A DNA stretch of 64,000 nt from Streptomyces sp. NBC_01244 (GTDB lineage Bacteria; Actinomycetota; Actinomycetes; Streptomycetales; Streptomycetaceae): positions 7,564,001-7,628,000 of the forward strand of contig NZ_CP108488.1 in the NCBI RefSeq assembly GCF_035987325.1, written 5' to 3'. This document shows positions 1 through 53,448 of this stretch, piece after piece. A program made the position numbers and the translations under genes. Each line of letters opens with the position of its first letter. Within the stretch, counting starts at the first letter, position 1. The notes below the pieces were generated by a model that had not been told where the DNA came from, did no database searches, and was given only the letters and a program-made list of their open reading frames with translations.

Positions 1-460
1 CTTCGAGGACGGCGGCTTCGTCATCCCCGAGCTCGCCCGCCTCGTCAAGGAGGCCCCCACCGTCGCCATCGGCACCGACGACGACACCGAGGAGGTCGTC
101 CGGATCTCCCAAGGCCGCGTCCAGTGCCGGTACTTCCCCATCGTCGTCCTCACCAGCAACGGCGAACGCGATTTCCCGCCCGCCTTCCTGCGCCGCTGCG
201 TCCGGCTCCACCTGGACCCGCCGGGACCCGACAAACTCGCCCGCATCGTGCGCGGCCGGCTCGGCGTCGACATCGAGAACAGCGACGAGTACCGCGATCT
301 CGTCCGGAGCTTCCTGGAACGCGCCGAGGACGGCGACCTCGCCACCGACCAGCTCCTCAACGCCATCCAGCTCCGGCTGGCCGGCGCCTGGTCCGCCCCC
401 GGCGACCGCGAACGCTTCCTCGCCACCGTCATGCACCACCTCACCGGACCCTCCGCGTGA
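1..460 (+). CDS. MoxR-type AAA+ ATPase, C-terminal part (5' end outside window)
   Basis: The reading frame is open from base 2 and ends with TGA at 458-460. About 152 residues are visible. They read as the second half of a MoxR-like AAA+ module: a stretch with VVLTSNGERDFPPAFLRRC, which matches the sensor-1 strand and the arginine-finger 'FLRRC' segment of MoxR ATPases, followed by a helical lid domain. The Walker A and B motifs lie outside the window. The stop overlaps the GTG start of the next gene (GTGA, 457-460), so the two proteins are translationally coupled and probably work together. MoxR ATPases are known to act as chaperone-like partners of vWA proteins, and the next protein carries a vWA-like domain. 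Assignment to the MoxR group is an inference from the C-terminal motif. Confidence 0.8.
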   Translation, partial: FEDGGFVIPELARLVKEAPTVAIGTDDDTEEVVRISQGRVQCRYFPIVVLTSNGERDFPPAFLRRCVRLHLDPPGPDKLARIVRGRLGVDIENSDEYRDLVRSFLERAEDGDLATDQLLNAIQLRLAGAWSAPGDRERFLATVMHHLTGPSA

Positions 461-3400
461 TCGAGAAACTCCTCGCCGCCCTGGCCGAAGGCGCCGAGGA
501 CAACAGCCCCCGCCCCGGAGTCGGAGCGGAGGAGATCGCCGACATCCTGTGGCTCGCGACCAGGGTCGACGCGGCCGGCCCCCGCCCGGATCCCCCCGGG
601 TCACCCCCGGCGGGCGGCCCACAACCAGCCCCCGATGGCACGGAGTTACCCGCCAAGGCGCGCGGCGGCGCCGTCGAACCGGGCGTCCAGTACTTCCCCG
701 CGGCCGCACCCGCACCCCCACTCGCACCCCCCGCCCCCGACGGCCCCGCGGAGCCCGCCGCCGGCCGGGCCGCCGGAGGCACCCCGGGCGGCGCGCCCGC
801 GTCGCCCGCGCCGGCCGCGCGCCGGGGCACCGCGGTGCGGCTGCCGCGCGCCGCCACCCTCGACGACCCGCTCGCCCTGATGCGCGCCCTGCGGCCGATC
901 GGCCGCCGCAGCATCGGCGGCCCGGGGGAGGAGCTGGACGAACAGCTCACCGTCGAGCGCAGCATCGAGCGGATGGTGCTCACCCCGGTCCTGCGCCCCG
1001 CCGAGAGCCGCTGGCTGGACGTGGCCCTGGTCGTCGACTCCCACCACTCGATGCTGCTCTGGTCCGACCTGGTGGAGGAGGTGCGCGGAGTCCTCACCCG
1101 CAGCGGGGTCTTTCGCGACGTACGGACCTGGCGGCTCACGGGGACCGGCCCCGGCGGCGCCCCCATGGTCGCGCACCATCGCGACAGCCCGCCCCGCAAC
1201 CCCCTGGAGCTCGTCGACCCGGCGGGCCGGCGGCTGATCCTGGTGCTCTCCGACACGGTCGCCGGCGGCTGGCGCGAAGCCCCCCTGCGCGGTGTGCTCC
1301 GGCAGTGGTCGGCGCACAACGCCGTGGCCGTACTGAACGTCCTGCCCGAGCGGCTCTGGACGCGCGGGGCGGTCCAGCCGGTCCCCTTCGCCGTGCGCGC
1401 GGACCGGCCCGCGGCGGCCACCCGCTCCTGGCAGCGCGTCCCGATCGCCCGGCGGGCCCGCGGCGGCGGGGCGGTGATCCCGGTCGTCGGCATCGCCTCC
1501 GGAAGCCTGGCCCGGCTGGTGCGGGTGGTGTCGGGCGACGGCCGCTGGCGGCGGCTCGCGTGCCTGCGCCTCGACGCGGAACCCGCGCGCGGGGGCCCGT
1601 ACGGGACACCCGGGGCCCCGAAGTTCTTCCCGGACCCCCTGGAGGCGGTGGAGCGCTTCCGTGCGAGCGCCTCGCCGACGGCCCAGCGCCTCGCCGACCA
1701 CCTGGCCGCCGTACCCCTCACCCTGCCCGTGATGACCCTCGTACGCCGCTCCCTGCTGCGGGACTCCGAGCACGGACACCTCGCGGAAGTCGCCCTGGGC
1801 GGGCTGCTCGCCCCTTGGGATGGTGAACAGGACGCCGACACCGCCCAGTTCGAGTTCCTGCCGGGCGTACGGGAAGCCCTGCTCGGGTCGCAGCTGCGCG
1901 GGGACGTGGCCGCCGTGCGGGAGTTGGTGCGGCGGCGCGTGTGGGAGTACATGTCCCACACGCGCGGCACCGGCCGGGACTTCACGGCGATCCGACGCGG
2001 ACCCCGGGGCGGTGGGCGCCGCGAACTGGCCCCGGAGGCACTGCCGTTCGCCCTGGCCGCCGGGCCGGTGTCAGGTCTGGCCGACCGGGTGGTGAGGGTC
2101 CGCTTCGAGCCGCATCGGGAGCAGGCGGTGGGCGTGCTGTTGTCGCCCCGACTGGTGCTGACGATCGGCGAGGCGGCTCAAACCCAGCGGACGAGCGCCA
2201 CCGCCTGGGTCCGGGTCGGGGAACAGGAGTTCCTCTGCTATCAGACCTGGGGAGACGGGGCGGCGCCCCAAGTGCTCCTGCTGGTGTCCGACATGGACCT
2301 CGTGGACCCGGCGGACTGGACGGAGCCGGCCTGGGCGGAGGGGTTCGCGGCCCCCGGGGAGCACCTGGTCGTGGACGGCGCGACCGACCAGGGCGAGGCG
2401 GTGGCGCTGACCGGCGAAGTCCTCCCGTACGAGGGGGAGCGCAACGGGGAGCTCGTCCGGCTCTCCGCCGAACCGGAGGTCTGGACCCACTACGCGGGCT
2501 CCCCGGTCTCCCGCGACGGCCTGCTGGCGGGCATCGTGCACAGCGTGTTGCCCGACCGGATGGTGTTCCTGACGGGGCAGGCGCTGATGGAACAGCCCGG
2601 ATTCCGCGAGGTCGTGGCGGCGCACCGGGCCTCAGGGAGCGAACGCTCGGGTGTCTGCCTGGCAGTTCGCATCCATGTGCACCTGGGGCCGATCCACCGG
2701 TCGGTGGAGGAGGTGGTGAGCGGCATCCTCCTGCGGGCGCAGGGGGAGCCCGACGAGGGCGGCCGGGTGCGCTCCAATGGAGACGGGGTTCTGTTCGTCC
2801 CCATCGAGGATCCGGGTGCTCTCGGAAGGTCCGGCGTGATGCTGGCCGCGCTCCCCGGGGAACTGGAGCGGCTGCGCGCAGGTTCCGGCGAATGGGAGAT
2901 CTCCCTGGTGGTGGCCCTGGCCAGAGGGCTGTTCACGCCCGACATGCAGGGCCCGGCGGCGCACGAGGCTCACGTGTTGGTCCGCCGCATGGAACACCTC
3001 GGCGTGCGGCTCCGTTCCGGAGAGCCGGGAACGCTCGTCATCGTGAAGGGCGAATCGCTGCTCGGTGTCGGCGGGCTGGAATCCCTCGCGATCGAGCCGA
3101 TGCCACTCGCGGAGCGGCATCCGCGCGGGTGGATCTGGACCGACTCGCCCGCCGAGGTGGGCCGGGCGCTGATCGATGCCGAGCTGAGGACCGAGGACCC
3201 GGGCGTCGGCTGGCCGCGCTGCGGGTACGGCGGCACGCAGGCGGATCCGGGCGGCTGCATCGGTATCCGACTGCCCGGCCGCCTGCGCTGCCTCACCCAC
3301 GTGTCGGCGGTGGAACGGGCCGAGTACCTCCACGCGCTGCGGCCGGGCTCGGAGGTGGACTTGCGGGGCACCACCTTCAGCGACGACCTGCTCGACCAGC

Positions 3401-4140
3401 TGCTGCTCGCGCTGCGCGAGCCCGGGGTGCGGCAGGTGAGGACGGGCCAGGCCCTCTTCGACCGGGCGCGTTTCACCGGTGACTGGGCCACGCCCGGGGG
3501 CGAGTTCGGGGGACGGGTCTCCTTCGATCGGTCCGTCTTCGAGGGGCAAGCGGCGTTCGAAGCGGCTCACTTCAGGGGAAGTGCCTCCTTCGGCCGGACC
3601 GACTTCCGGCGCGGCGCGACCTTCGACGCTGCCGTGTTCGACCGTGAAGCGCGTTTCGTCAGGGCGGACTTCAACGGCAACGCCGGATTCGCGGAGGCCG
3701 TGTTCGTCCAAGACCTGGACATGACCGGGGCCGAGGTGTGGGACAGGGCGCGGCTGGGCCGGATGCGGGTGGGCGGTGCCGCCGACCTCGCGCACACGGT
3801 CTTCCACGGCCACAGCGACTGGAGGCGGACCACCTTCCTGGGGCCCGCCACCTTCGCGTCCACCGTATGGGGCTCCGGCGCGGTGTTCGACCAGGTCCGC
3901 TTCGAGGGCCGGGCCTCCTTCGACCACGCCACCTTCGCCGGACCGACCTTCTTCAAAGGCACGTTCTTCGCGGACCGGGTGACCTTCGACGCGGCCGACT
4001 TCGCGGACCACGGGGAGTTCATGAACACGACCTTCGCCGATCGCACGGGGCTGCCCGAGGCGTGGCGGACCCTCCTGCCGCCGTCGGGCGCCGCGACGTT
4101 CACCCTGGGCGGCGCGGCTGATGGAGGCACAGAGGCCTGA
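457..4140 (+). CDS. SAV_2336-like vWA / pseudo-protease / pentapeptide-repeat protein (1227 aa)
   Basis: The GTG at 457 is chosen because it overlaps the stop of the ATPase gene and begins a sensible helical N-terminus; upstream in-frame codons lie inside the ATPase gene. Order of parts: an N-terminal helix and a Pro/Ala-rich linker (to about residue 130); a vWA-like domain with a degenerate MIDAS, D194-S-H-H-S198; a trypsin-like domain (about 540-725) ending in YAGSPVSRDGLLAGIVH; a region (about 727-890) with GDGVLFVP that recalls class III nucleotide cyclases, without obvious metal-binding aspartates; and from about 915 the leader and repeats of a pentapeptide-repeat domain (A/S-x-F units). 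The trypsin-like triad is missing: the His site reads VLTIGEA (Glu572) and the Ser site has Ala680. The likely role is a scaffold, sensor or effector partner of the MoxR ATPase. Domain names are by-eye matches. Confidence 0.75.
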   Translation: MIEKLLAALAEGAEDNSPRPGVGAEEIADILWLATRVDAAGPRPDPPGSPPAGGPQPAPDGTELPAKARGGAVEPGVQYFPAAAPAPPLAPPAPDGPAEPAAGRAAGGTPGGAPASPAPAARRGTAVRLPRAATLDDPLALMRALRPIGRRSIGGPGEELDEQLTVERSIERMVLTPVLRPAESRWLDVALVVDSHHSMLLWSDLVEEVRGVLTRSGVFRDVRTWRLTGTGPGGAPMVAHHRDSPPRNPLELVDPAGRRLILVLSDTVAGGWREAPLRGVLRQWSAHNAVAVLNVLPERLWTRGAVQPVPFAVRADRPAAATRSWQRVPIARRARGGGAVIPVVGIASGSLARLVRVVSGDGRWRRLACLRLDAEPARGGPYGTPGAPKFFPDPLEAVERFRASASPTAQRLADHLAAVPLTLPVMTLVRRSLLRDSEHGHLAEVALGGLLAPWDGEQDADTAQFEFLPGVREALLGSQLRGDVAAVRELVRRRVWEYMSHTRGTGRDFTAIRRGPRGGGRRELAPEALPFALAAGPVSGLADRVVRVRFEPHREQAVGVLLSPRLVLTIGEAAQTQRTSATAWVRVGEQEFLCYQTWGDGAAPQVLLLVSDMDLVDPADWTEPAWAEGFAAPGEHLVVDGATDQGEAVALTGEVLPYEGERNGELVRLSAEPEVWTHYAGSPVSRDGLLAGIVHSVLPDRMVFLTGQALMEQPGFREVVAAHRASGSERSGVCLAVRIHVHLGPIHRSVEEVVSGILLRAQGEPDEGGRVRSNGDGVLFVPIEDPGALGRSGVMLAALPGELERLRAGSGEWEISLVVALARGLFTPDMQGPAAHEAHVLVRRMEHLGVRLRSGEPGTLVIVKGESLLGVGGLESLAIEPMPLAERHPRGWIWTDSPAEVGRALIDAELRTEDPGVGWPRCGYGGTQADPGGCIGIRLPGRLRCLTHVSAVERAEYLHALRPGSEVDLRGTTFSDDLLDQLLLALREPGVRQVRTGQALFDRARFTGDWATPGGEFGGRVSFDRSVFEGQAAFEAAHFRGSASFGRTDFRRGATFDAAVFDREARFVRADFNGNAGFAEAVFVQDLDMTGAEVWDRARLGRMRVGGAADLAHTVFHGHSDWRRTTFLGPATFASTVWGSGAVFDQVRFEGRASFDHATFAGPTFFKGTFFADRVTFDAADFADHGEFMNTTFADRTGLPEAWRTLLPPSGAATFTLGGAADGGTEA

Positions 4141-4151
4141 GCCGCTGAGCG

Positions 4152-4925
4152 CTATCCGCTCCGCCGGAGCAGGAAGAAGAGGCTGGGCCCGAAGTTGAGG
4201 GCGGCCAGCGGGCTCTGGACGCGCTGCTCGACCGCCAGCAGGCGGTCCTCGCCCAGGCTCCGCTTCAGCCGGCCGCTGCGCATGTTGGACACGGACAGCT
4301 TGTCCTCGACCCGCAGCCCGGCGTCCGCGAACTGCCGTACGACGGTGTCGGGATGGTGGTTGACGAAGGGGATGCTGCCCTCCGCCACCTTCTCGGCGGA
4401 GCGGATGTCCACGGGCCCGCGCGGGACACCGCGCAGCCGCTTCGCGTAGCGCAGCTTGTTCAGCATGTGCGCGGAGTTGGCCACCTCGATCAGGGCGCGT
4501 CCGCCGGGCTTCAGCACGCGCGCCATCTCGCGCAGCGTGGGGCCGGGGTCGGGCAGGTGGTGCATGACGCGGATCATGGAGAGGAGATCGGCCGAGCCGT
4601 CGTCCAGCGGAAGGTGGCCGGGGCGCATGTGGTGCGCCGTGATCCCGGGCCGGTCGGCGAGCAGCCGGCCGGCGATGGCCACGTGCTTGGCGCTCGGGTC
4701 GAACATCATGACCCGGTCCGCGTACTCCTTGAGGAGCGGGCTCAACCGCCCGAACCCGCCGCCCACTTCGCAGACGAGTCCGTAACGGCGGCCGCCGATC
4801 AGTCGTTTGACCGCGGCTATCTCCGCCGCGTGTTCGTAGTCGCGCCCCTGCCAGTAGGCGACGTAGTCCTCCGACTCGTCGTCGTACTGATCGCCCCGTG
4901 CTTCACCGCTGTCCATGTCGTCCAT
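4152..4925 (-). CDS. SAM-dependent class I methyltransferase
   Basis: The product is about 257 residues of a Rossmann-fold methyltransferase of the Methyltransf_11 type. Motif I is VCEVGGGFGRLSPLL, the acidic post-I residue lies in VMMFDPSAK, and the motif II/III region is ADLLSMIRVMHHLPDPGPTL followed by a VLKPGGRALIEVAN strand. The start at 4925 (MDDMDSGE) is preferred over an upstream extension with no plausible ribosome site; ATG 4916 is an alternative. No substrate can be read from sequence. The gene converges on the vWA-like gene with 11 bases between the stops, and no terminator hairpin is obvious there. Confidence 0.85.
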   Translation of the reverse strand: MDDMDSGEARGDQYDDESEDYVAYWQGRDYEHAAEIAAVKRLIGGRRYGLVCEVGGGFGRLSPLLKEYADRVMMFDPSAKHVAIAGRLLADRPGITAHHMRPGHLPLDDGSADLLSMIRVMHHLPDPGPTLREMARVLKPGGRALIEVANSAHMLNKLRYAKRLRGVPRGPVDIRSAEKVAEGSIPFVNHHPDTVVRQFADAGLRVEDKLSVSNMRSGRLKRSLGEDRLLAVEQRVQSPLAALNFGPSLFFLLRRSG

Positions 4926-5016
4926 GTGCCGCCCCCCGCATGTGCGTGTGTGGCGCATCATCTCGGCGGATTCCGGGGGAGGCAACGGCTCCGGCGTGTG
5001 GATGCTGCGCGGATTT

Positions 5017-5054: not shown

Positions 5055-5837
5055 TCAGGCGGTGGGCGGCACCCGTCCCGGTCGGCCCGCGCCGCGGGTC
5101 AGGCGGTAGCCGCCGATGCCCGCGAGGGCGGCGAGCAGGCCGCCGGCCGCCGTCCAGAGCCAGCGGTCCGACCACCAGGTGCCCGACCAGCCGTCGGCCG
5201 GTGCGACACCGGACGCCGTGCCGGCGCCGGGGACGATCGGCACGGCCAGGGTGTTGTCGGCGGCGTAGGCGCCGCCCATGTCCTCGGCCTCGGCCCGCAG
5301 GCGTGCCCGTACCGGCTGGCCGAGGTCCTCCTGCGCGAGGTCGGTGACCGTGAGCCGGACGTAATAGGCCCCCGGCAGCGGGTCGTTGGCCCACTGGTCG
5401 GCGCCCGAGCGGACCGGGCGCAGGGTGCACGACAGGTCGACGGTAGCGGCGTCCTTGGCGGCCGTACCGGTCTGCGTGCCGTACATGCAGGGCTGGCGGC
5501 GGCGCAGGCCGTCGTACACGTCGAGCTGCCACGTGGAGGCGGAGTGCCGGCCCGTGGCGGCGGGCAGGGTGACCGAGGCCCGCAGGGTGGCGCGCTGGCC
5601 CGAGTCCAGGGGGAGCACCCAGTAGAGGTAATCGCCCGTGGAGGCGTCGGCCGTGGCCTCCTGCCCCAACTGGAGCGGGGTGGCGGTACGGAAGGCCGTT
5701 CCGGCCTCGGTCGGACCCTTCCCGGCGCCGCTCGGGCTCGGCGACGGCGAGGCCGCCACCCCGAGCAGGCCGCCGCCCACGAGCAGGGCGGCGGTCAGCG
5801 CGCGTCGCACGCTTCGGTCATGTCTCAGGGCACTCAT
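5055..5837 (-). CDS. Secreted/membrane-anchored protein paired with vWA protein
   Basis: The product is about 260 residues. The start ATG at 5837 shares one base with the upstream stop (TGATG), so it is coupled to the vWA gene. It has a signal peptide (MSALRHDRSVRRALTAALLV, then a small-residue region), an extracellular beta-rich domain with two cysteines, and a C-terminal membrane segment (WTAAGGLLAALAGIGGY) before a short basic tail. The upstream protein has the same signal peptide, ectodomain and C-terminal anchor plan, and both contain similar 'YYVRLTV / RWYRVSV' beta segments, suggesting two partners in one cell-surface complex. I do not recognise a named family. Confidence 0.75.
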   Translation of the reverse strand: MSALRHDRSVRRALTAALLVGGGLLGVAASPSPSPSGAGKGPTEAGTAFRTATPLQLGQEATADASTGDYLYWVLPLDSGQRATLRASVTLPAATGRHSASTWQLDVYDGLRRRQPCMYGTQTGTAAKDAATVDLSCTLRPVRSGADQWANDPLPGAYYVRLTVTDLAQEDLGQPVRARLRAEAEDMGGAYAADNTLAVPIVPGAGTASGVAPADGWSGTWWSDRWLWTAAGGLLAALAGIGGYRLTRGAGRPGRVPPTA

Positions 5838-7099
5838 CAGTTGGTCCTCCAGACCGCGATACGCCAGCGGGAGACCCAGCCCCACACCAGTCCGGCGAGG
5901 AGGCCGGTGAGCGCCAGTGCGCCGAGCAGCCACCAGCCGCGCCCGAGGCCGAAGGAGGCCACGTCGGAGGCCGCGTCCGGTCCGTCCACCACGTCGATGG
6001 TCAGCTCGACCGGCATGCCCGGGGTGGTTTTCACCGAGGCGGGCGCCGAGAAGGAGTTGCTGACCTGGAGGCACACGGTCTCGGCCGGCTCCTCGTCGTC
6101 GTCGCTGCCGGCCTTGGGATAGCGCAGCCCGGACGAGATCAGGTCGGTCCGCCCGTCACCGGCCTCCTGGCCGCGTACGATCTCCCGGCCGCTCTGCGTC
6201 GTGGCGCGCAGCAGCACGCCGTAGTCGTTGTTCACGGCGCGGTCGGACCCGATGCTGACCGAGGCCCGCAGTTCCCGGCCCGGGGCCACGGAAACCCGGT
6301 ACCAGCGGTGCTCCCCGAAGCTCTCGCGGTCGCTGTAGAGCCCGGGCTTCAACTCCGGCGCGCCCGCGCACTGCTTGGCGCCCTCGGTGGCCACCGGATT
6401 GACCACCGGTGTGGCCGCCCGGCCCACCAACTGCTTGACCCTGCCCGACAGTTCCGCCGTGTGCTGCACGGAGGTGTACGTGCCGCCCGTGGCCTCGGCG
6501 ATACAGATCAGCTGGTCGCGGGTCTTGACGTCGGGAACCAGCCCGAGCGTGTCGATGACCAGGTGGATCCCCTGGGCCGCGATGTCCCGGGCCACTTCGC
6601 AGGGGTCGAGCGGGGCGCAGGTGTCCTCGCCGTCGGTGATGAGCACGATCCGCCGGGTGGCGTCGCCGCCCTTCAGGTCCTCGGCGGCCCCCAGCAGCGC
6701 CGGTCCGATGGGCGTCCACCCGGTGGGGGCCAGTGTGGCCACCGCCGTCTTGGCCTCGGTCCGGTCCAAGGGGCCCACCGGATAGAGCTGCTTGGTGTCC
6801 TTGCAGCCGAGGTTCTTGTCGGGGCCGGGGTAGTTGGCGCCCAGGGTCCGTATGCCGAGCTGCACCTCGTCGGGTACGGCGTCCAGTACCTCGTTGAACG
6901 CCTGTTTCGCGGCGGACATCCGGGTCTGTCCGTCGATGTCCCGCGCCCGCATCGAGCCGCTGACGTCCAGCACCAACTCGACCTTGGGCGCTTCCTTGGC
7001 CACCGGCTCACCGGCGGCGGCACCTGACGGGAACAACCCGACAGCGAGGGTGACGAACAGGCCGCACGCACTGGCCCTCACCCATCTTCTAGTGATCAT
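5837..7099 (-). CDS. Secreted vWA-domain protein with C-terminal membrane anchor
   Basis: The product is 420 residues. It starts with a signal peptide (ITRRWVRASACGLFVTLAVG), followed by a von Willebrand A domain with an intact MIDAS, LVLDVSGSM, at about residue 45, then a conserved ITDGEDTC segment and 'TLGLVPDVKTRDQL'. A beta-rich module follows, and a C-terminal transmembrane helix (WWLLGALALTGLLAGLVWGW) with a basic cytoplasmic tail. This is the Ca-activated-channel-like / YfbK-like vWA architecture. vWA domains bind divalent metal and protein ligands. The gene has its own leaderless promoter and forms a two-gene operon with the following anchored protein. Confidence 0.85.
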   Translation of the reverse strand: MITRRWVRASACGLFVTLAVGLFPSGAAAGEPVAKEAPKVELVLDVSGSMRARDIDGQTRMSAAKQAFNEVLDAVPDEVQLGIRTLGANYPGPDKNLGCKDTKQLYPVGPLDRTEAKTAVATLAPTGWTPIGPALLGAAEDLKGGDATRRIVLITDGEDTCAPLDPCEVARDIAAQGIHLVIDTLGLVPDVKTRDQLICIAEATGGTYTSVQHTAELSGRVKQLVGRAATPVVNPVATEGAKQCAGAPELKPGLYSDRESFGEHRWYRVSVAPGRELRASVSIGSDRAVNNDYGVLLRATTQSGREIVRGQEAGDGRTDLISSGLRYPKAGSDDDEEPAETVCLQVSNSFSAPASVKTTPGMPVELTIDVVDGPDAASDVASFGLGRGWWLLGALALTGLLAGLVWGWVSRWRIAVWRTN

Positions 7100-22088: not shown

Positions 22089-22114
22089 GGAACGTCCCGG
22101 TTAGATTCCGGCCA
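22079..22114 (+). promoter_or_regulatory. Leaderless promoter of the HEAT-repeat gene
   Basis: TTGGTG (22079-22084), a 17-base spacer and TAGATT (22102-22107) lie exactly six bases before the ATG at 22114. The -35 hexamer and geometry are the same as in the vWA promoter at 7100-7134. No ribosome site precedes the ATG. Confidence 0.6.
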
Positions 22115-25100
22115 TGACGATACCGGCGGACAAGTCCCTTCTCGACGCGGTGCGCCGGGCCGACGTCGGCCACCTGGCCGGCCGTCTCGACGCGCGGCTC
22201 TGCCCGCCGGCCGTCTTCGGACTCCTCGTCCGGCACGAGGATCCCCGCGTGCGGTACCTGGGGCTGACCCTCCTGGCCGAGCGCGTCGCCTCGGGCCGTA
22301 CGGGCGACGAGCAGGAGATGGCCGAACTCGCCGGGCTGCTACCGGTGGCGGTGCCGCGGGCGCCGGAGGAAGCGCTCGTCCTGGCGCGGCTCCACGAACG
22401 ACTGGGGCCGTACCTCCGGGAGTCCGGCCGGCCGTCGTGGCGTACGGCGGGGCTGCCGGTACGGGTACGGATCGCCTGGCTGCGCGCCGAGCTCCTGAAC
22501 GATCCGGCAGTGCTCCGGAAGGAGCCTCCGGGTGAACTGCTCCACCAGGCCGTGCGGGAAACGACCGCCGCCTCCGCGCACCGGCCCGGGCAACTCGTGC
22601 AGGAGCTGGTGGACAGCGGCGACCCGGTGTTCCAGGCCGATGCGCTGCGGCTGGCCCGGCAGGCGCTGCACGCCGGCCTGCTGGCTCCCGTACTGGTTCG
22701 CGCACACGTGCTCAGCCTGCTCGGCTCCGGCAGCGCGGACGTCGCCGCCGCCGCGCTGGGGGAACTCGCCCAGCCCTGGGCCGCGTTGGACCCACTTCCC
22801 CCGGGGCGGCTGGCGTCCTTCCTCGCTGCCGAATCGGTGACCACACGGCCCGGGGCGGCCGATGCCGCGCTCGAGGCCGCGGTCCACCACGGACACCGCG
22901 ACCTGCTGTGGCAGGTCATCGACGATCCGGGTCTGCCGCCGCGTCTTCGCCGGCGCGCGATGGAACTGCTCGGTGAGCTGGCCGACCGCGGGGACATCGG
23001 CGCATTGACGGCGGTCGCCGCACGCGACCCGCTGCTGTTCGGCGGTCCGGCGGTGACCTGCCTGCGCGGGCTCCACCGGCGCGGGCACTTCCCGGACGGT
23101 CCGCACGTCCCGTCCCTCATCGGCCTGGCGCTGGCCGATCACACGATCCCGCCCCACGAGCTCGCGACGATCCTGTTCACCTGCCGACAGGAAATGCTCC
23201 GCGTCCTGGTGGACGCGCCCGCCGTCGATCCGAACTGGCCGCGTCGGCTCGCGCTGCTGGTCGCCCTCGCCGGACAGGGGGCGGGGGAGCTTGCGATCGG
23301 GGACGCGATCACCCGGGTCCTCCCCTCGGCTCCCGTGCCGGGGCCCTTCCTCGACGCGATCCGTGCGGTGCGCCACGCGGACGCCGAGGACGCGGTGATC
23401 GCCCTGCTGCCGGCGGCGCCCGCAGCGGCCCTGGACGCGCTGGAGGCCATCGGCGGGCCCCGGACGGAGGCGGCGCTGAGGGAAGGGCTCGGTCTGGCCG
23501 CGGAGCAGGCACAGCAGGGCGCAGGAGAGATCGCGCCGCACCTCCGCGCGGTGCGGAACCGGGCCCTCGAGGTGCTGTGGCATCTGACCGACGACCCGTC
23601 ACGGCGGCGTGCCCTCCTCGTCCGTCTCGATCCCACCGATCTGCCGGTGCGCATCGCGGCGGACCTCGGCGGGCCCGACGAGCGGGAACTGGCCCTCCTG
23701 AGTTCCCATCTGGACCCGGACCAGCCGGTGGCGGCCCTGTGCAGACTGGCCGCACACGGCGGCGCCGGAACACTGCCGGTCATCGCCGACCTGCTCCTGC
23801 GCGTCGTGGCCGAGCTGGCGGCGTCCGGGGAGCCGGGCGGAACCGTCCCGCGACCCGACGGCGGACAGCCGGCCGGGGAGCCCGTGGTCCCGCAGGAGGT
23901 CCTGGACGCCGTACACGACCTGGGCCGCCGGCTCCACGAGCGGGGACGGATCAGGCCGTCCTGCCTGCTCGACGCGCGGACCGCACAAGAGGCGGGGCAC
24001 GCCCTCCTCGCGACCATGGCGCTGGACCTGCTGGAGCGGCCCGGACTGTCGAGCGGCGAGCAGGCGATCCTGCTCGAACTCCTGCTCCGGGCCCCGTACG
24101 TGGGCACCCGTGCGCGAGCGCACCGCCTGCTGCGCCACCGCGACCGGCACGTGCGCAAGCACGTGATCGCGCTGCTCGCCCGAGACGCCACGGGAGACGA
24201 CGCGCAGGCCCTGTCGGCGACGTTGATCGCGCTGACCGCGGCCCAGGACGTCCAGACCATCCGGCAGGCACTGCTCGCCCTCGGCCACGCGCGCGCCCGC
24301 TGGGCCTCCGGCGCGATCGCCGCATGTCTCGCCCACCCGAACATGAACATCAAGAAGACCGCCGCCGCGGTCCTGGCCGGCGCGGGCACCCCCGCGGCGG
24401 TACCGGCGCTGCTCCTCGGGCTCGGCCGTCACGTCAACCCGGGGCTGCGCGGCACGCTCGTCGAGGCGCTGCGCGCCATCCTCGGCGACGCGTACCGGGC
24501 GACCGTCCTCGCCGCCGCCGAACACACCGATGACGGCCGCGCCCGCGCACTGCTGCTGGAAGGCCTCGACCGCACCCTGCCGGCGCGCTCGGTCCTCGCC
24601 CTGGACGACCAGGCGTCACGGGTCGCTCCGGCCCTGCTCGCCCTGGTGGCGGCCGGTCGGGTCCGCCTCGCCTCCGGGACGGTCGAGGACCTGTCCACTG
24701 CCATGGCCAGACACGGCATCACCACGCCCGCCGTACCGCGGTCGGCGGTGGGCACCGGAGCGGACCCGGACGTCGACTCACTGGATGAGCGGGGCTGGCA
24801 CACGCCGGTCGCCCTACGCCTCGCCGCGCGGCCCGAACTGCCGCACCCCACCCGGCTGCGGGTGCTTCGGCCCCTGCTGGCGGACTGGCTGCGCCTGGCC
24901 GCCACCGAACCCGCCGGACGAGCCCGCGTCCTGCGGCTCACGCTCCGGCTCTGCCCCGCACCGTGGACGCCCGGGGAACTGACGGCCTTCGCCCGGTCCA
25001 CCGCGGTCCTGCTCGACGGGCTCGCCGGGGCCGCCACGGAAGACCGGCACGCACTCCTGGCGGTACTCGAAGCGATCGCGCCGACCCTCCCCGCGGTCGA

Positions 25101-26871
25101 GAAGCAGGCCGTCGCCGAGGCGGTACGCGCACTGCCCGGCGCCCCCTCGGACAGCCCGTCCACACTGACGCTGCTCCGCGCCCTCGGCGCGGTCCTGGTC
25201 CGCGCCGACCTCGACCAGGCGCTCGCCTCGGCCCGGCTGGGCACCAGCCCCTGGCAGGCCGAGGCCGCCGCACTGCGGGAGGCCTTCGCCGCACCGCGGT
25301 CCGCTGAGGCCACTGCATCGGCTGCGACGGCACCCAACACGGCATCCAACACGGCATCCACCGCGGTAGGCACTACGTCGGCTGAGGCCGAGGCCGAGGC
25401 GTGGCGGGCCGTGCTCGATGCCGCGGTGCGCACACCGGGCTCCCTGGAGGAATTCCGCCGACGCGACCGCCCTGGCCGGGAGGGCGAAGGCACCGTCCCA
25501 GCCGTCCCAGGCTCCCGGGTCCGCCTGACCGCGCTGATCGAGGTGTACCCCTCGGCCGGCTCCGAGGTCCGCGCCGCCCTCATCGACTGGATGACGGACC
25601 TCCAGCCCCTCGACGCACCACCCTGGACCCTCACCGAAACCGCCCACGCGCCGGCGCCGGTGCCGCGGCCGAGGACCGTGCGGATCGACGACCTCGACCA
25701 GCCCCGCTCGACCGCACTGCGGGACCGCCTGCTGGCCATGCTGAGGGCACCCGATCAGGAACGCCGCCACACCGCGGCCCTCGCGCTCCTGGAATGGCCC
25801 GAGCCCGAGTGCGGGGTTCCCGTGCTCCGAGCGTTTCTGCGAGGCCGCATCGACGTACCCGTCAGCGTCGACCTGGCCCGCGCACTGAGCGCCGTCGACG
25901 CGAGGGAACTCCGCGCGGACGACATCCTGCACGACAGGGTCGCCCACGTGGCGAGCCTGCTCGACCCGTGGGACCTGGAACCACTGGTCCCGCTGCTGCT
26001 GGAATGGTGGGAACACGACGCGCCGACCGGCAGCTCCGCCGTCGGGCAGGCCCTGCACCGGGTCCCCGCCGACGTACTGGCGCAGCGCCTCGGCGATCGC
26101 CTCGGCGCCGGCACCTGGGGGTTGCTCGACCTGCTGGGCGGGCGTTCCCTGCTGCGGACCCCCGCGCTGACGCGGGTCTGCCGCCGGCTGCGCGCCGAAG
26201 GACGCGACGACCTCGCGGACGGCCTGCTCCTCGTGGAAGGTCCGCTGCGCCGCCCGGACACCGTGGAGCAGGATGCCGCCGCGCTGGCCGCGCTCCGCGA
26301 CCGCGCCCCGACAGCGTCGACGGGAGCGTCACACCCCCTGTCCCGGCGGGAGCTGTTGGACCTGGCCCGGACCGGCGACCCGGTGCGGATCCGCCAGGCA
26401 CTCACGCGACTGGCCGAGGGGCACACCGGCCCGGAGGCCGACCGGGACCCCGGACTGCGGGACCTGATCGGCGAGTTGCTGCGTCATCCCAAGCCGAAGG
26501 TCCGCCTGCACGCCCACCGCACCTCGCGGGCCATGCTGGACCGGCAGACCCACCTGCACCACACGTCGGTCCTGCTGGACGACCCCCAGCCGGACCTGGT
26601 GCGCACGGCGATCCGTACGCTCTGCCGCGCGACCTGGGCCCCCGCGATTCCCACGGTGACGGGACTGCTGGAGCACCCGCACGCCGTCGTCCGCAGGGCC
26701 GCGGCCGAGGGACTCGTCTCCATGGGCACGTCGGCGATCCCGGCACTCAAAGACGCCACCGTCCACGCCCGCCCCGACAAGCGGTCCCTCTACGCGGAGA
26801 TCCTCGAACGGGTCACACCCCACCAGGCCCACGACGGCCCGGCCACGGCCAAGGCCGGCCGACACCGGTGA
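22114..26871 (+). CDS. Giant HEAT-repeat-like protein (1585 aa), function unknown
   Basis: The protein is almost wholly alpha-helical, with Leu/Ala-rich helix pairs spaced about 30-45 residues apart. Clear HEAT-like units include HRDRHVRKHVIALLARDA (about residue 680), HPNMNIKKTAAAVLAGAG (about 740), HPKPKVRLHAHRTSRAML (about 1459), DDPQPDLVRTAIRTLCRA (1489) and HPHAVVRRAAAEGLVSMG (about 1521). A low-complexity Ala/Thr/Asn linker near 1067-1095 (DNA repeat ACGGCATCCAAC) divides it. No enzyme motif, signal peptide or membrane segment is seen. Such solenoids are normally protein-binding scaffolds in the cytosol. It is a single-gene unit with its own promoter and terminator. Confidence 0.8.
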   Translation: MTIPADKSLLDAVRRADVGHLAGRLDARLCPPAVFGLLVRHEDPRVRYLGLTLLAERVASGRTGDEQEMAELAGLLPVAVPRAPEEALVLARLHERLGPYLRESGRPSWRTAGLPVRVRIAWLRAELLNDPAVLRKEPPGELLHQAVRETTAASAHRPGQLVQELVDSGDPVFQADALRLARQALHAGLLAPVLVRAHVLSLLGSGSADVAAAALGELAQPWAALDPLPPGRLASFLAAESVTTRPGAADAALEAAVHHGHRDLLWQVIDDPGLPPRLRRRAMELLGELADRGDIGALTAVAARDPLLFGGPAVTCLRGLHRRGHFPDGPHVPSLIGLALADHTIPPHELATILFTCRQEMLRVLVDAPAVDPNWPRRLALLVALAGQGAGELAIGDAITRVLPSAPVPGPFLDAIRAVRHADAEDAVIALLPAAPAAALDALEAIGGPRTEAALREGLGLAAEQAQQGAGEIAPHLRAVRNRALEVLWHLTDDPSRRRALLVRLDPTDLPVRIAADLGGPDERELALLSSHLDPDQPVAALCRLAAHGGAGTLPVIADLLLRVVAELAASGEPGGTVPRPDGGQPAGEPVVPQEVLDAVHDLGRRLHERGRIRPSCLLDARTAQEAGHALLATMALDLLERPGLSSGEQAILLELLLRAPYVGTRARAHRLLRHRDRHVRKHVIALLARDATGDDAQALSATLIALTAAQDVQTIRQALLALGHARARWASGAIAACLAHPNMNIKKTAAAVLAGAGTPAAVPALLLGLGRHVNPGLRGTLVEALRAILGDAYRATVLAAAEHTDDGRARALLLEGLDRTLPARSVLALDDQASRVAPALLALVAAGRVRLASGTVEDLSTAMARHGITTPAVPRSAVGTGADPDVDSLDERGWHTPVALRLAARPELPHPTRLRVLRPLLADWLRLAATEPAGRARVLRLTLRLCPAPWTPGELTAFARSTAVLLDGLAGAATEDRHALLAVLEAIAPTLPAVEKQAVAEAVRALPGAPSDSPSTLTLLRALGAVLVRADLDQALASARLGTSPWQAEAAALREAFAAPRSAEATASAATAPNTASNTASTAVGTTSAEAEAEAWRAVLDAAVRTPGSLEEFRRRDRPGREGEGTVPAVPGSRVRLTALIEVYPSAGSEVRAALIDWMTDLQPLDAPPWTLTETAHAPAPVPRPRTVRIDDLDQPRSTALRDRLLAMLRAPDQERRHTAALALLEWPEPECGVPVLRAFLRGRIDVPVSVDLARALSAVDARELRADDILHDRVAHVASLLDPWDLEPLVPLLLEWWEHDAPTGSSAVGQALHRVPADVLAQRLGDRLGAGTWGLLDLLGGRSLLRTPALTRVCRRLRAEGRDDLADGLLLVEGPLRRPDTVEQDAAALAALRDRAPTASTGASHPLSRRELLDLARTGDPVRIRQALTRLAEGHTGPEADRDPGLRDLIGELLRHPKPKVRLHAHRTSRAMLDRQTHLHHTSVLLDDPQPDLVRTAIRTLCRATWAPAIPTVTGLLEHPHAVVRRAAAEGLVSMGTSAIPALKDATVHARPDKRSLYAEILERVTPHQAHDGPATAKAGRHR

Positions 26872-40026: not shown

Positions 40027-43000
40027 ATGCCCTCTTCCATGCCTGCAGCCATGCCCCCGCACGCCCCCGTAGCCGTCATCGGCATGTCCTGCCGGCTGCC
40101 CGGGGCCGCAAGCCCCGAGGCCTTCTGGACCCTCCTGAGCAACGGCACCGACGCCGTCACCGAGGTGCCCGCCGACCGCTGGGACGCGGAGGCGCTCCAC
40201 GACCCGGACCCGGCCGTGCCCGGGCGGTCGGTCAGCAAGCGGGGCGGATTCCTGGACGACATCAGCGGATTCGACGCCGGGTTCTTCGGCATCTCCCCGC
40301 GAGAGGCCTCGGCCATGGACCCGCAGCAGCGACTCACCCTCGAACTCGCCTGGGAGGCCCTCGAACACGCACGGATCGTCCCCGCCGGGGTGCGGGGCGG
40401 GCGGGTCGGCGTGTTCGTCGGTGCGATGGCGGACTCGTACGCGACCCTGACGCAGCGCCAGGGCCTGGAAGCCGTCGGCATCCACACCATGACCGGCGTC
40501 AGCCGGGGCATCCTCGCCAACCGCGTCTCCTACCTGCTGGGCCTGCGGGGCCCGAGCCTGACCCTCGACACCGGCCAGTCCTCCTCGCTCGTCGCCGTAC
40601 ACGAGGCCTGCGAGAGCCTGCGCTCCGGCGAGTCGGAGATCGCGCTGGCCGGCGGGGTCAACCTCGACGTCGTCCCGGACGGCTTCGTCGCCGCCACCAA
40701 GTTCGGCGGCCTCTCCCCGGACGGCCGCTGCCACGCCTTCGACGCCCGCGCCAACGGCTTCGTCCACGGCGAAGGCGGCGGCCTCGTCGTACTCAAGCGG
40801 CTGGACCGCGCCCTCGCCGACGGCGACCGGGTGCTCGCCGTGATCCGCGGCTCGGCCGTCAACAACGACGGTGGCGGCCAGAGCCTCACCTCGCCCGTCC
40901 CCGGCGGCCAGGAGGACGTGCTCCGGCTCGCCTACGAGCGGGCCGCGACCGACCCGGCGGACGTCACGTACGTGGAGGCGCACGGTACGGGTACCCGGCT
41001 GGGCGATCCGGTCGAAGCAGCCGGGCTCGGCGCGGTGTTCGGAGAGAACCGCAGCGTCACCAGGCCGCTCCTGATCGGTTCCGTGAAGACCAACATCGGG
41101 CACCTGGAGGCCGCCGCGGGCATCGCGGGCCTCATCAAGGTCATCCTCTCCCTCGTCCACCGGGAACTGCCTGCCAGCCTCAACTTCGAGACGCCCAACC
41201 CCGAGATCGACTTCGAGGAACTGCGCCTCGAAGTCCGTACGGAGCACGGCCCCTGGCCCCGGGCGGCGGCTGAACCGGACCCGGACGGGCAGGGCGCGTA
41301 CAGGCAGGGCGCACCGCTCGTGGCCGGTGTCACCTCCTTCGGGATGGGCGGCACCAACTGCCACGTCGTCCTGTCGGAGAGCCCGGCCCCGGTCCCCGCC
41401 CCGGCGGTGCCCGCCGAGGCCACCGAGGCCACCGAGGCCACCGAGGCCACCGAGGACAAGGCCTCGTTGCCGTACGTCCTGTCCGCACGCACCGATGAGG
41501 CCTTGCGGGCCCAGGCGCGGCAGCTCCGCGACCGACTGGTGGACGGTCCGGACATGGTGCGCGCCGACCTCGCGTATTCACTCGCGGTCACACGGTCCGC
41601 TCTTGAGCGTCGGGCGGTGGTGGTGGCGGGTGACCGTGAGGGGCTGGTGGCTTCGTTGGGGGAGCTGGCTGCCGGGCGTGGTGCGGGTGGTGTGTCGGTG
41701 TCGGAGGGTCTGCAGGCGTTCTTGTTCACGGGGCAGGGTTCGCAGCGGGTCGGGATGGGGCGTGAGTTGTATGACGCCTTCCCTGTCTTCGCGTCGGCCT
41801 TTGATGCGGTGTGTGGGGCTGTCGACCCGTTGCTGGCTGGGTCGTTGAGGCAGGACGTCTTCGAGGGTGCGGATGGTGTTCTCGATCGCACGGAGCTGAC
41901 GCAGCCGGCTGTCTTCGCTCTTGAGGTCGCGTTGTTCCGGCTCTTGGAGTCGTGGGGTGTGCGTCCCGATGTCCTGGCGGGGCATTCGATCGGTGAGATC
42001 GCTGCCGCGCACGCGGCCGGTGTGCTTTCCCTTGCGGATGCCGCACGACTCGTGGTGGTGCGAGGTGCGTTGATGCAGGCTCTGCCCGCGGGCGGGGGCA
42101 TGGTCGCGGTGACGGCTTCGGAAGAGGACGTCACGCCGCTGCTTGCGGGCCGTGAGGGTCTGTTGAGCCTGGGCGCGGTCAACGGAGCGGAGTCTGTTGT
42201 CCTTTCGGGTGCCGACTCGGCGCTGGCCGAGGTGGTGGCCGTCCTGGAAGAGCGGGGTGTCAAGACCCGTCGTCTGAAGGTGAGTCATGCTTTCCATTCG
42301 CCGTTGATGGACCCGATGCTCGACGAGTTCCGCACGGTCGTGGAAAGCCTGTCCTTCGGGAAGCCCGATCTGCCGGTGGTCTCCACGGTCACTGGCGAGT
42401 TGATTCCCGGTGAGGAGTTCGCTTCCCCCGAGTACTGGATCGGGCATGTCCGTCAGACCGTCCGCTTCCACGACGCGGTACGGGCCCTCGAAGCCCACGG
42501 CGTTACGCGTTTCATCGAGGTCGGCCCTGATGCCACCCTCACCGCCCTGGCACAGACTTCCCTCAGCGGTGGAACGGGGACGGCCTTCGCGGCCTCCCTG
42601 CGCAAGGGCCGCCCCGAAGCCCGGACCCTGCTGTCCGCTCTCGGCACGGTCTTCGCGCACGGTGGCAGGGTCGACTGGGAGGCCTTCTTCGCGGGCTCCG
42701 GCGCACGCCGGACGGACCTGCCCACCTACCCCTTCCAGCGCCGCCCGTACTGGATCGCAACCACGGCCGAGCCCGTATCCGTAGCGGCGTCCGCGTCCGC
42801 GTCCGCATCCGTACCCGAGCCCGTATCGCGTACGCCGGAGCCCGCGGAGCAGCAGTCGCTCCTGGAGCTCGTCCGGGCCCGTGCCGCCGAGGTCCTCGAC
42901 TACGCCGGACCGCACGAGGTCGATCCCACCCGCAGCTTCAGGGACCTGGGATTCGACTCGCTGACCTCGGTCGAGCTGTGCGGCCGGCTGAGCGCGGCGA

Positions 43001-46000
43001 CCGGGCTTCGGCTGCCCGCCACCCTGCTGTTCGACCACCCCACCCCGGCCGAGGTCGCCCGTCATCTCCGTGACGAACTGGGCGGCCGCGAATCCGCCTC
43101 CGACGCCGCCTCCGACGCCATCCGGACAGCGTCGGACGAGGAGCCGATCGCCATCGTCGCGATGAGCTGCCGACTGCCCGGCGGAGTCCGCTCGCCCGAG
43201 GAGCTGTGGGAGCTGCTGGCCGACGGCGGGGACGCGATCTCCGAGTTCCCCGCCGACCGCGGCTGGGACCTCGACGCCCTGTACGACGCGGAGCCCGGCG
43301 TGCCCGGTCGTACGTACACGCGTTCCGGAGGATTCCTCTACGACGCCGCGCAGTTCGACCCCGAGCCGTTCGGGATCTCGCCGCGCGAGGCCACCGCGAT
43401 GGACCCGCAGCAGCGCCTGCTGCTGGAGAGCTCCTGGGAGGCGCTGGAACGGGCGGGCATCGCGCCGGACACGCTAGGCGGCACCCGCACGGGGGTGTTC
43501 ATCGGCCTCTCCCCGCAGGAGTACGGGCCCCGGCTGCACGAAGCAGGCGAGGGCTCCGAGGGGTACGTCCTGACCGGCACCATCCCGGCCGTGGCCTCCG
43601 GGCGCATCGCCTACACCTTCGGCCTCGAAGGGCCCGCCGTCACCATCGACACGGCCTGCTCGTCCTCGCTCGTGGCCCTCCACCTGGCCTGCCGTTCGCT
43701 GCGCTCGGGGGAGAGCACCCTCGCCCTCGCCGGCGGTGTGATGGTGATGTCGAGCCCCGGCATGTTCGTCGAGTTCAGCCAGCAGCGCGGCCTTTCCGCC
43801 GACGGACGGTGCAAGGCGTTCTCCGCCGACGCCGACGGGACCGGCTGGGCCGAGGGCGCGGGCGTGCTCGTCCTCGAGCGGCTCTCGGACGCCCGGGCGA
43901 ACGGCCACGAGGTGCTCGCGGTGATCCGCGGTACGGCGGTCAACCAGGACGGCGCGAGCAACGGCCTGACCGCCCCCAACGGCCCCTCCCAGCAGCGGGT
44001 CATCCGCGCCGCGCTGGCCGACGCCGGTCTGTCCGCCGCCGAGGTCGATGCGGTCGAGGCGCACGGTACGGGCACGCGGCTGGGCGACCCGATCGAGGCG
44101 CAGGCCCTCCTGGCGACGTACGGCCAGGACCGGCCCGAGGACCAGCCCCTCTACCTGGGCTCCCTGAAGTCGAACATCGGGCACGCCCAGGCGGCCGCCG
44201 GTGTCGCCGGTGTCATCAAGATGGTGGAGGCCATGCGGCACGGGGTGCTGCCCCGGACGCTGCACGTCGGCGAGCCCTCGCCGTACGTGGACTGGTCCAC
44301 GGGCGCGGTGCACCTGCTGACCGAGGCCCGGGAGTGGCCGGAGACCGGTCGGCCGCGCCGCGCCGCCGTCTCCTCCTTCGGTGTGGGCGGGACCAACGCC
44401 CACGCCATCATCGAACAGATCGTGCCGTCCGACACGATTGGCCAGACCGACGAGACCGACGAGACCGGGAAGGACCCGGAGGCGGACACCGTCGCCCCGT
44501 CCGCACTGCCGTGGGCCGTGTCCGCGGCGACGCCCGCAGCGCTGCGCGCCCAGGCCGCGCGCCTGCGCGACCAGGTGGCCGCCGATCCCGGCACCGACCT
44601 CGCCGCCGTCGCGCTCTCCCTGGCCACCACCCGCGCCACGCTCAGGGAGCGTGCCGTGGTCGTGGCCGGCGACCGGGATGGCTTCCTGGCCGGGCTCGGC
44701 GCCCTGGCCGACGGCGAGCCGGCCGACCGGCTGGTGACCGGCACCGCCGCCGGTGCCCGTCGACCCGTGTTCGTGTTTCCGGGGCAGGGGTCGCAGTGGG
44801 TGGGTATGGCCGTGGGTCTCCTCGACCGGTCACCTGTGTTCCGTGACAGCATCGAGTCCTGTGAGGCGGCGTTGTCGCCGTACGTGGACTGGTCGCTGAC
44901 CGGCGTACTGCGTGGTGCGAAGGGCGCTCCGGGCTTCGAGCGTGTCGATGTGGTCCAGCCCGTTCTGTTCGCCGTCATGGTCTCCCTCGCGGAGCTGTGG
45001 CGTTCGCACGGTGTCGAGCCGGCTGCGGTGGTCGGGCATTCGCAGGGCGAGATCGCGGCGGCCTGTGTTGCCGGCGCGCTCTCCCTGGAGGATGCGGCGC
45101 TCGTGGTCGCTCTGCGCAGTCAGGCTCTTGTGGAGATCGCCGGGGACGGCGGAATGGTGTCCGTGCCGCTGCCCGCCGCCGAGGTGCGCGAACGGATCAC
45201 ATCGTGGGACGACTTGTCCATCGCCACGATCAACGGTCCCCGTTCCACCGTCGTCTCCGGTAGTGCGCGACAGCTCGAGGAGCTCCTGGCCGTCTACGAG
45301 GCCGCCGATGTGCGGGCCCGTCGTATCCCGGTCGATTACGCCTCGCACTCCGCGCACGTCGAGGCCATCGAGGAGCGTCTGGCCGAACTCCTGGCCCCCA
45401 TCCGCCCCCGCACTCCCCGCATCCCCTTCCACTCCACGGTCACCGGCCGGCCCGTCACAGGCGAACAGGGCGAACAGGACGGACAGGGCGGTCAGGACGG
45501 TCAGGGCGGACAGGGTGACCGGCTCGACGCCGCGTACTGGTACCGCAACCTCCGCCACACCGTCCAGTTCGAGGACACCGTGCGCTCGCTCCTCGACCAG
45601 GGCTTCGATGCCTTCATCGAAATGAGCCCGCACCCCGTCCTCGCGATCGGCGTGCAGGAGACGGTGGAGACCGCGGGTGCCTCCGACATCGCCGTGCTCT
45701 CCTCCCTGCGCCGTGACGAGGGGGGACCCGAGCGGTTCCTGGCCTCCCTGGCCGAGGCCCACGTACGGGGCGTGGCGGTGGACTGGCTGCTCGCCCCGGG
45801 CCCCCGCGCGGCCCTGCCCACCTATGCGTTCCGGCGCGACCGCTACTGGCTCTCGTCCCACTCGGGCGGCGCCGCGGCCCGTGCGGGCGACGCCCGCGAG
45901 GACCGCTTCTGGGAGGCCGTCGAGAACCAGGACACGACCTGGTTCGCCGGTGAACTCGGCGCCGAGGACGGCGACGCGCTCGCGCCCGCCCTGTCCCTGC

Positions 46001-53346: not shown

Positions 53347-53448
53347 GCCGTGAGCATCCCCGGCACCACCACCAGCACCAGCGGCACCACGCCCACCCCC
53401 GTATCCGGACCGATTCCGACGCACGAACGACATCGCGAGGCGAACCCA

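Follow-up and report, generated by a model that had tools for sequence, protein, structure and literature searches.

We found that the stretch of Streptomyces sp. NBC_01244 DNA analysed here (64,000 nucleotides, hereafter the window) opens inside a four-gene operon-like row encoding a hydrolase-like protein, a VMAP (caspase, VMAP-M0 and VMAP-C), a MoxR ATPase and a vWA protein. Judged from sequence, the row is a VMAP ternary system of the caspase type, of which the window holds the MoxR-vWA end. VMAP ternary conflict systems were introduced by Kaur, Burroughs, Iyer and Aravind (2020, eLife, PMC7159879). These authors predict that operons of this kind work as an immune or suicide switch of the bacterial cell. 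They already describe vWA components that carry an inactive trypsin, an inactive cyclase and pentapeptides as modules, and give a multi-domain tail as the norm (Kaur et al., 2020, PMC7159879). Action against invading entities is a prediction for this kind of operon, and no cell-based study of a VMAP system stood out in our literature search, which covered open-licence papers. New here are a fast mosaic tail on the vWA protein (residues 727-1200), an intact VMAP caspase dyad at 6 of 6 loci and a DxHxS MIDAS in the window's clade. The features of the two genes within the window are:

2..460, + strand: MoxR-type AAA+ ATPase, 3' part (last 152 of 368 aa)
457..4140, + strand: vWA component, GTG start overlapping the MoxR stop; 1227 aa
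826..1992, + strand: vWA domain with flanking extensions, residues 124-512 (matched part approximately residues 185-361)
1036..1050, + strand: MIDAS segment DSHHS, residues 194-198, DxHxS in place of DxSxS
2059..2634, + strand: domain of trypsin fold lacking the catalytic triad, residues ~535-726 (fold from a structure model; triad absent in the alignment)
2635..3192, + strand: tentative cyclase-like alpha/beta domain, residues 727-912 (from model topology); the fastest-evolving module
3220..3300, + strand: putative zinc-binding motif Cys922, Cys934, Cys945, His948 before the repeats, each residue invariant in 57/57
3349..4041, + strand: pentapeptide-repeat region (PF13576), residues ~965-1195, borders by eye

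The original prediction noted a GTGA overlap between the end of a MoxR gene and a 1227-residue protein with several unlike domains, and the sequence confirms it: the GTG start at 457 shares GTGA (457-460) with the MoxR TGA stop at 458-460. The MoxR gene is truncated by the window edge, its true start lying 647 bases before the window (L002:9355-10461, 368 aa). The whole MoxR protein matches Pfam AAA_5 (1.4e-6); the window part alone gives a sub-cut-off match to the MadB ATPase (2.5e-7) and nothing else. What we take to be the Walker A and Walker B motifs lie upstream of the window. By eye, the VMAP-type N-terminal motifs WxhapG and PsWRxa are present in all 12 aligned MoxR proteins, as WWLYQG and PPWRDF in the window operon.

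It had further been proposed that a vWA domain, a dead protease and a possible effector or binding repeat are fused in one partner, which would make this a compact form of such a system, and that further members be sought upstream. The search upstream found a VMAP and a hydrolase-like gene immediately before the window, and the compact form is not supported. The VMAP gene (L002:7207-9279, 690 aa) lies on the same strand, 5' of MoxR, and matches PF20028 VMAP-C at E 1e-35 and PF19916 VMAP-M0 at E 2e-4, slightly below the cut-off of the latter; its N-terminal caspase matches NF047832 at E 1.2e-10, with 41 bits against a curated cut-off of 140. These matches rule out a fused or missing third component. 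The hydrolase-like gene (L002:5699-7210, with 5945 as the probable conserved start) lies on the same strand directly upstream of the VMAP gene; its best Pfam match (E 0.039) is below cut-off and the superfamily call rests on the motifs GHSLG and HGTG, conserved in 6/6 orthologues. The VMAP motifs WAGHG and D[AS]CR are likewise conserved in 6/6 loci, with the dyad H117/C171 intact in all six. We take these motifs to stand for a caspase His/Cys pair and, in the hydrolase-like protein, a hydrolase GxSxG. A genome-wide profile search of the assembly (10.0 Mb, 3 contigs) gave one VMAP-C match and one SAV_2336 N-terminal match. PADLOC, run on the vWA component and the window part of MoxR, returned no match.

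Set beside the systems of Kaur et al., the window operon shows no difference in kind: it has the same VMAP-MoxR-vWA order, VMAP-C, MoxR N-terminal motifs and actinobacterial host, a VMAP of the caspase kind beside a hydrolase-like gene, and a vWA tail made up of an inactive trypsin module, a tentative cyclase-like module and pentapeptide repeats, with DxHxS in the MIDAS of its own clade.

We surveyed 101 genomes of the genus, using for each family, the vWA component included, 150 listed matches out of a larger number. Of the 150 vWA matches listed, 142 are preceded on their own strand by a listed MoxR no more than 1500 bases away, so the second gene is far from being a stranger to MoxR, as it would have to be for the predicted pairing to fail; for 127 of those 150, VMAP-C also lies within 3500 bases, giving the order VMAP, MoxR, vWA. 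One of the other listed matches has VMAP-C only and seven have neither, at least three of the seven at contig starts. At the ten loci with the closest MoxR (at least 58% identity, window included) the vWA component adjoins in all and VMAP-C in nine. A VMAP-C match is present in 84 of the 101 genomes and absent from 17, counts made with a model that misses some VMAPs. We rejected a VMAP-less class of MoxR-vWA loci, since L017 and L022, two of its candidates, hold VMAP-M2 and a caspase match and had been missed by the VMAP-C model. The hydrolase gene was matched at all six loci with a full-length VMAP match (L002, L005, L006 and L008-L010) and at L025-L028; it was unmatched in L011-L013, where the VMAP match does not begin until residue ~283.

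The exception among the ten loci, genome G012 (L007, C1:7004000-7018000), carries a close orthologous MoxR and vWA with no VMAP or hydrolase gene in the 14 kb read, and its sole VMAP-C match lies ~1.6 Mb from the MoxR-vWA locus. This looks like loss of the VMAP and hydrolase genes within the 14 kb read. In two further genomes (G079 and G091), MoxR-vWA pairs with no VMAP-C nearby are followed by radical SAM genes identified by Pfam (L014:1214-2518 and L015:1419-2735, both on the - strand), and the L014 protein scores above the cut-off for the FxsB family of peptide maturases. Two vWA matches of identical score lie near both ends of a 10.7 Mb contig (G049:C1:14483-15871 and G049:C1:10661267-10662655), which fits the terminal repeats of a linear chromosome.

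The vWA component matches the SAV_2336 N-terminal domain (NF041121) at 8e-111. At least 291 homologues were found among 8000 candidates scored; 120 were listed, and those listed with an organism are from Streptomyces. Database entries from Streptomyces named 'SAV_2336 N-terminal domain-related' or 'pentapeptide repeat-containing' belong to the same family, under names that carry no function. We aligned the window protein with 56 of 132 homologous proteins retrieved (alignment A1, 57 rows). Because a Pfam scan of vWA-component sequences gave no vWA or trypsin match, we built structure models, which revealed a trypsin fold and, with less certainty, a fold of vWA type, the two folds whose absence would have told against the original prediction. 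A search of a viral library returned mostly viral serine proteases and polyproteins; PDB sequence searches with the single protein, its profile, the VMAP and the hydrolase-like protein gave nothing significant.

Every row of A1 has DxHxS where the canonical MIDAS has DxSxS, and H196 and D266 are conserved in 57/57; D266 (1252-1254) is probably the second metal Asp of the MIDAS. Over 49 loci, 23 have DxHxS, 15 DxSxS and 11 another form, and all 23 DxHxS loci are near relatives or Streptomyces. The segment EEIADILWL near residues 25-33 resembles the [D/E]xxx[D/E]xxx-aromatic vWA N-terminal motif with the aromatic one residue off. R430, R431, S432 and E438 are invariant in A1 and are candidates for the conserved S, E and R published for the C-terminal extension of the vWA domain. 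The His-Asp-Ser triad of an active trypsin-like peptidase is missing from the trypsin-fold module across A1. The evidence supports a MoxR/vWA pair of the predicted conflict-system kind, in which a single chain joins a dead protease to other modules. The invariant CCCH segment would bind metal, putatively zinc. PF13576 matches five stretches of the vWA component, best at residues 1113-1159, and pentapeptide repeats are present in all 39 sequences scanned, out of the 57 that make up A1. In one more distant vWA component (38% identical; L011:1379-5458, - strand) an EACC1 domain follows the pentapeptide repeats.

We only tentatively call residues 727-912 a cyclase-like domain, from a model whose predicted topology is compatible with a class III nucleotidyl cyclase. 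In hhalign against 15 cyclase domains the best alignment fell in the register expected from cyclase motifs, with a non-significant score of 10.8, and control modules scored higher (trypsin-like 13.9, vWA 12.9, extension 12.6); the 15 domains, picked by motif from 25 loci, are near-identical to each other, which makes this a weak test. No cyclase match was found by Pfam in any of the 39 scanned sequences. The list from a PDB structure search with residues 515-912 was filled by proteases and so speaks to the trypsin-like part.

We then compared evolutionary rates by computing dN/dS (Nei-Gojobori) between the window genes and 5 or 6 relatives, and then 18 relatives. The larger set comprises the 6 earlier loci and 12 of 28 later ones, leaving out L031 and L032 (repeats of L008 and L009), L038 (which matches the core only) and 13 loci from other phyla. 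With 5 or 6 relatives, values were 0.07-0.32 for the vWA core, 0.37-0.78 for the trypsin-like module, 0.72-1.20 for the cyclase-like module and 0.62-0.95 for the CCCH/pentapeptide part; with 18 they were 0.07-0.35, 0.36-0.83, 0.75-1.48 and 0.37-1.12, respectively. The other genes gave 0.18-0.33 (MoxR), 0.16-0.37 (caspase), 0.25-0.38 (hydrolase), 0.16-0.45 (VMAP-M) and 0.32-0.50 (VMAP-C, faster than VMAP-M) with 5 or 6 relatives. Linkers of the vWA protein are fast too (0.33-0.65 for residues 1-123 and 0.17-1.00 for residues 513-540). For the cyclase-like module the bootstrap interval contains 1 in 16 of the 18 relatives, and four close pairs that exclude the window gave 0.63, 0.67, 0.72 and 1.37, with two intervals below 1 and one above. 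These values near 1 may reflect relaxed constraint, and selection for change in this module is possible.

Synonymous sites set the tail apart as well. Between the window and L026, dS is 0.07-0.14 for neighbouring genes and the rest of the operon and 0.11 for the core, against 0.58 and 0.57 for the two tail modules. Because Nei-Gojobori dS inflates where dN is high, we also counted fourfold sites, only at codons with an unchanged amino acid. Fourfold-site divergence of residues 727-1200 exceeds that of the rest of the operon in 7/7 relatives (7 of the 18), with uncorrected p from 0.0046 to 9.5e-22 and, in the strongest case, 0.43 versus 0.094; the trypsin-like module shows no consistent rise (0.13-0.30). 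Pairwise comparison of 32 proteins (the window and 31 of the 56 other A1 proteins) gave 12 pairs, which are not independent, with cores at least 97% identical. In three of these, which involve four proteins, the tails are less than 60% identical; P0005 and P0013, for example, share 99.5% of the core and 52% of the tail. Tree conflict, tried on the same proteins, was discarded as proof of exchange because it is not specific to the tail: when the core is split in two, each half likewise rejects the tree of the other, and nearest neighbours differ in 16/32 between core halves, as many as between core and tail. Because synonymous divergence is raised and near-identical cores bear unlike tails, the tail appears to have been exchanged between lineages. 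This agrees with the recombination that Kaur et al. inferred from chromosome position (PMC7159879), whereas the mosaicism here is measured by synonymous sites.

The dead-enzyme domains and their apparently swapped end section point to recognition rather than catalysis. We lean somewhat towards a caspase-type VMAP system in which the vWA tail is the sensor and the VMAP caspase the actor, because what look like catalytic residues are found on the VMAP and on the hydrolase-like protein, whereas it is the tail, with its dead protease, that varies. In such a system the tail (dead protease, cyclase-like domain, CCCH motif and pentapeptide repeats) would recognise, or act as a decoy for, something foreign or altered in the cell, and the vWA domain would couple it to the MoxR ring. 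ATP hydrolysis by MoxR would then remodel the complex and free the VMAP caspase, which with its partner hydrolase might damage or kill the hyphal compartment and so limit the spread of an invader. All these steps are inferred. Genome G012, with MoxR and vWA and no VMAP in 14 kb, is unexpected under a strict caspase-effector model. A more specific form of the sensor-tail model is conceivable though doubtful: the vWA protein would be a receptor that recombines, its conserved, MoxR-coupled DxHxS core carrying an exchangeable dead-enzyme tail which determines specificity and sets off the VMAP caspase. If true, this would be a bacterial counterpart of immune switches that stay fixed while their recognition ends are swapped.

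Two published proposals agree, in the passages that bear on the point, that MoxR is the switch, and differ on which end senses and which acts: for Kaur et al. VMAP-M senses and the vWA tail acts (PMC7159879), and a 2024 paper reverses this (PNAS, PMC10907252). The latter concerns DGR-linked MoxR ternary systems of Thiohalocapsa which, as its relevant passages describe them, likewise have MoxR, a vWA protein whose variable tail is the proposed sensor, and a VMAP peptidase in the proposed role of effector; their tail has a lectin fold that a retroelement diversifies, whereas here it consists of dead-enzyme modules and pentapeptides. In this lineage, apparent catalytic residues on the VMAP and hydrolase-like protein together with variability on the vWA tail amount to a testable vote between the two, and the alleles with near-identical cores and unlike tails are named swap pairs for experiment. 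Elsewhere, VMAP systems have been linked to type III CRISPR loci (according to part of PMC10910872).

The assignment of Kaur et al. has the VMAP middle region sense the invader, MoxR being switched and the VMAP peptidase cutting the vWA protein, thereby releasing tail modules as effectors or dominant-negative decoys. It was proposed family-wide from architecture (so in the relevant passages of PMC7159879), and inactive enzymes could indeed serve as decoys. We nonetheless consider it unlikely for this operon: VMAP-M is not clearly faster than the caspase or MoxR in these relatives, whereas the vWA tail is, and the protease triad is not kept in the tail.

NorQ-NorD and BatB-type MoxR-vWA pairs are chaperones for respiratory or envelope functions; to our knowledge they come without a VMAP and without such a tail. 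The pair studied here could by analogy assemble or activate the co-encoded caspase and hydrolase, or another complex, in development or stress rather than defence. Known MoxR-vWA pairs do such work (as stated in part of PMC7159879), and the system is common in the genus, as the VMAP-C counts attest. A fast mosaic tail is, however, unusual for housekeeping assembly, and 17 of the 101 genomes have no VMAP-C match, even if the model misses some VMAPs; we regard this explanation as distinctly improbable. That the cyclase-like and pentapeptide tail is decaying, drifting under weak constraint with non-functional variability, would suit the cyclase-like dN/dS close to 1 but is hard to credit when the tail frame is open in 18 relatives as well as the window gene and none of the four CCCH residues varies in 57/57. 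Synonymous divergence is also raised, an effect not expected of drift in a stretch inherited vertically.

A methyltransferase gene (4152-4985, - strand; PF08241, E 5e-18) lies right after the operon; in the stretches compared, just one of the 7 relatives has a match to it. Next to it (5055-7099, - strand) are two ORFs, overlapping as listed, that lie beside the operon in 7/7 relatives, the second over only 60 codons in one of them; they encode a separate vWA protein (VWA_2, E 2e-11) and a 339-aa frame without a Pfam match. Further on, a 1585-aa frame (22114-26871, + strand) has a HEAT repeat near its end (PF13646) as its sole match at E <= 1e-5. Modular type I polyketide synthase genes of 4439 and 1898 aa, with KS, AT, DH, KR and ACP domains by Pfam, occupy 40027-59046 (+ strand) and are followed by a further long ORF (59086-63999) that runs to the window end.
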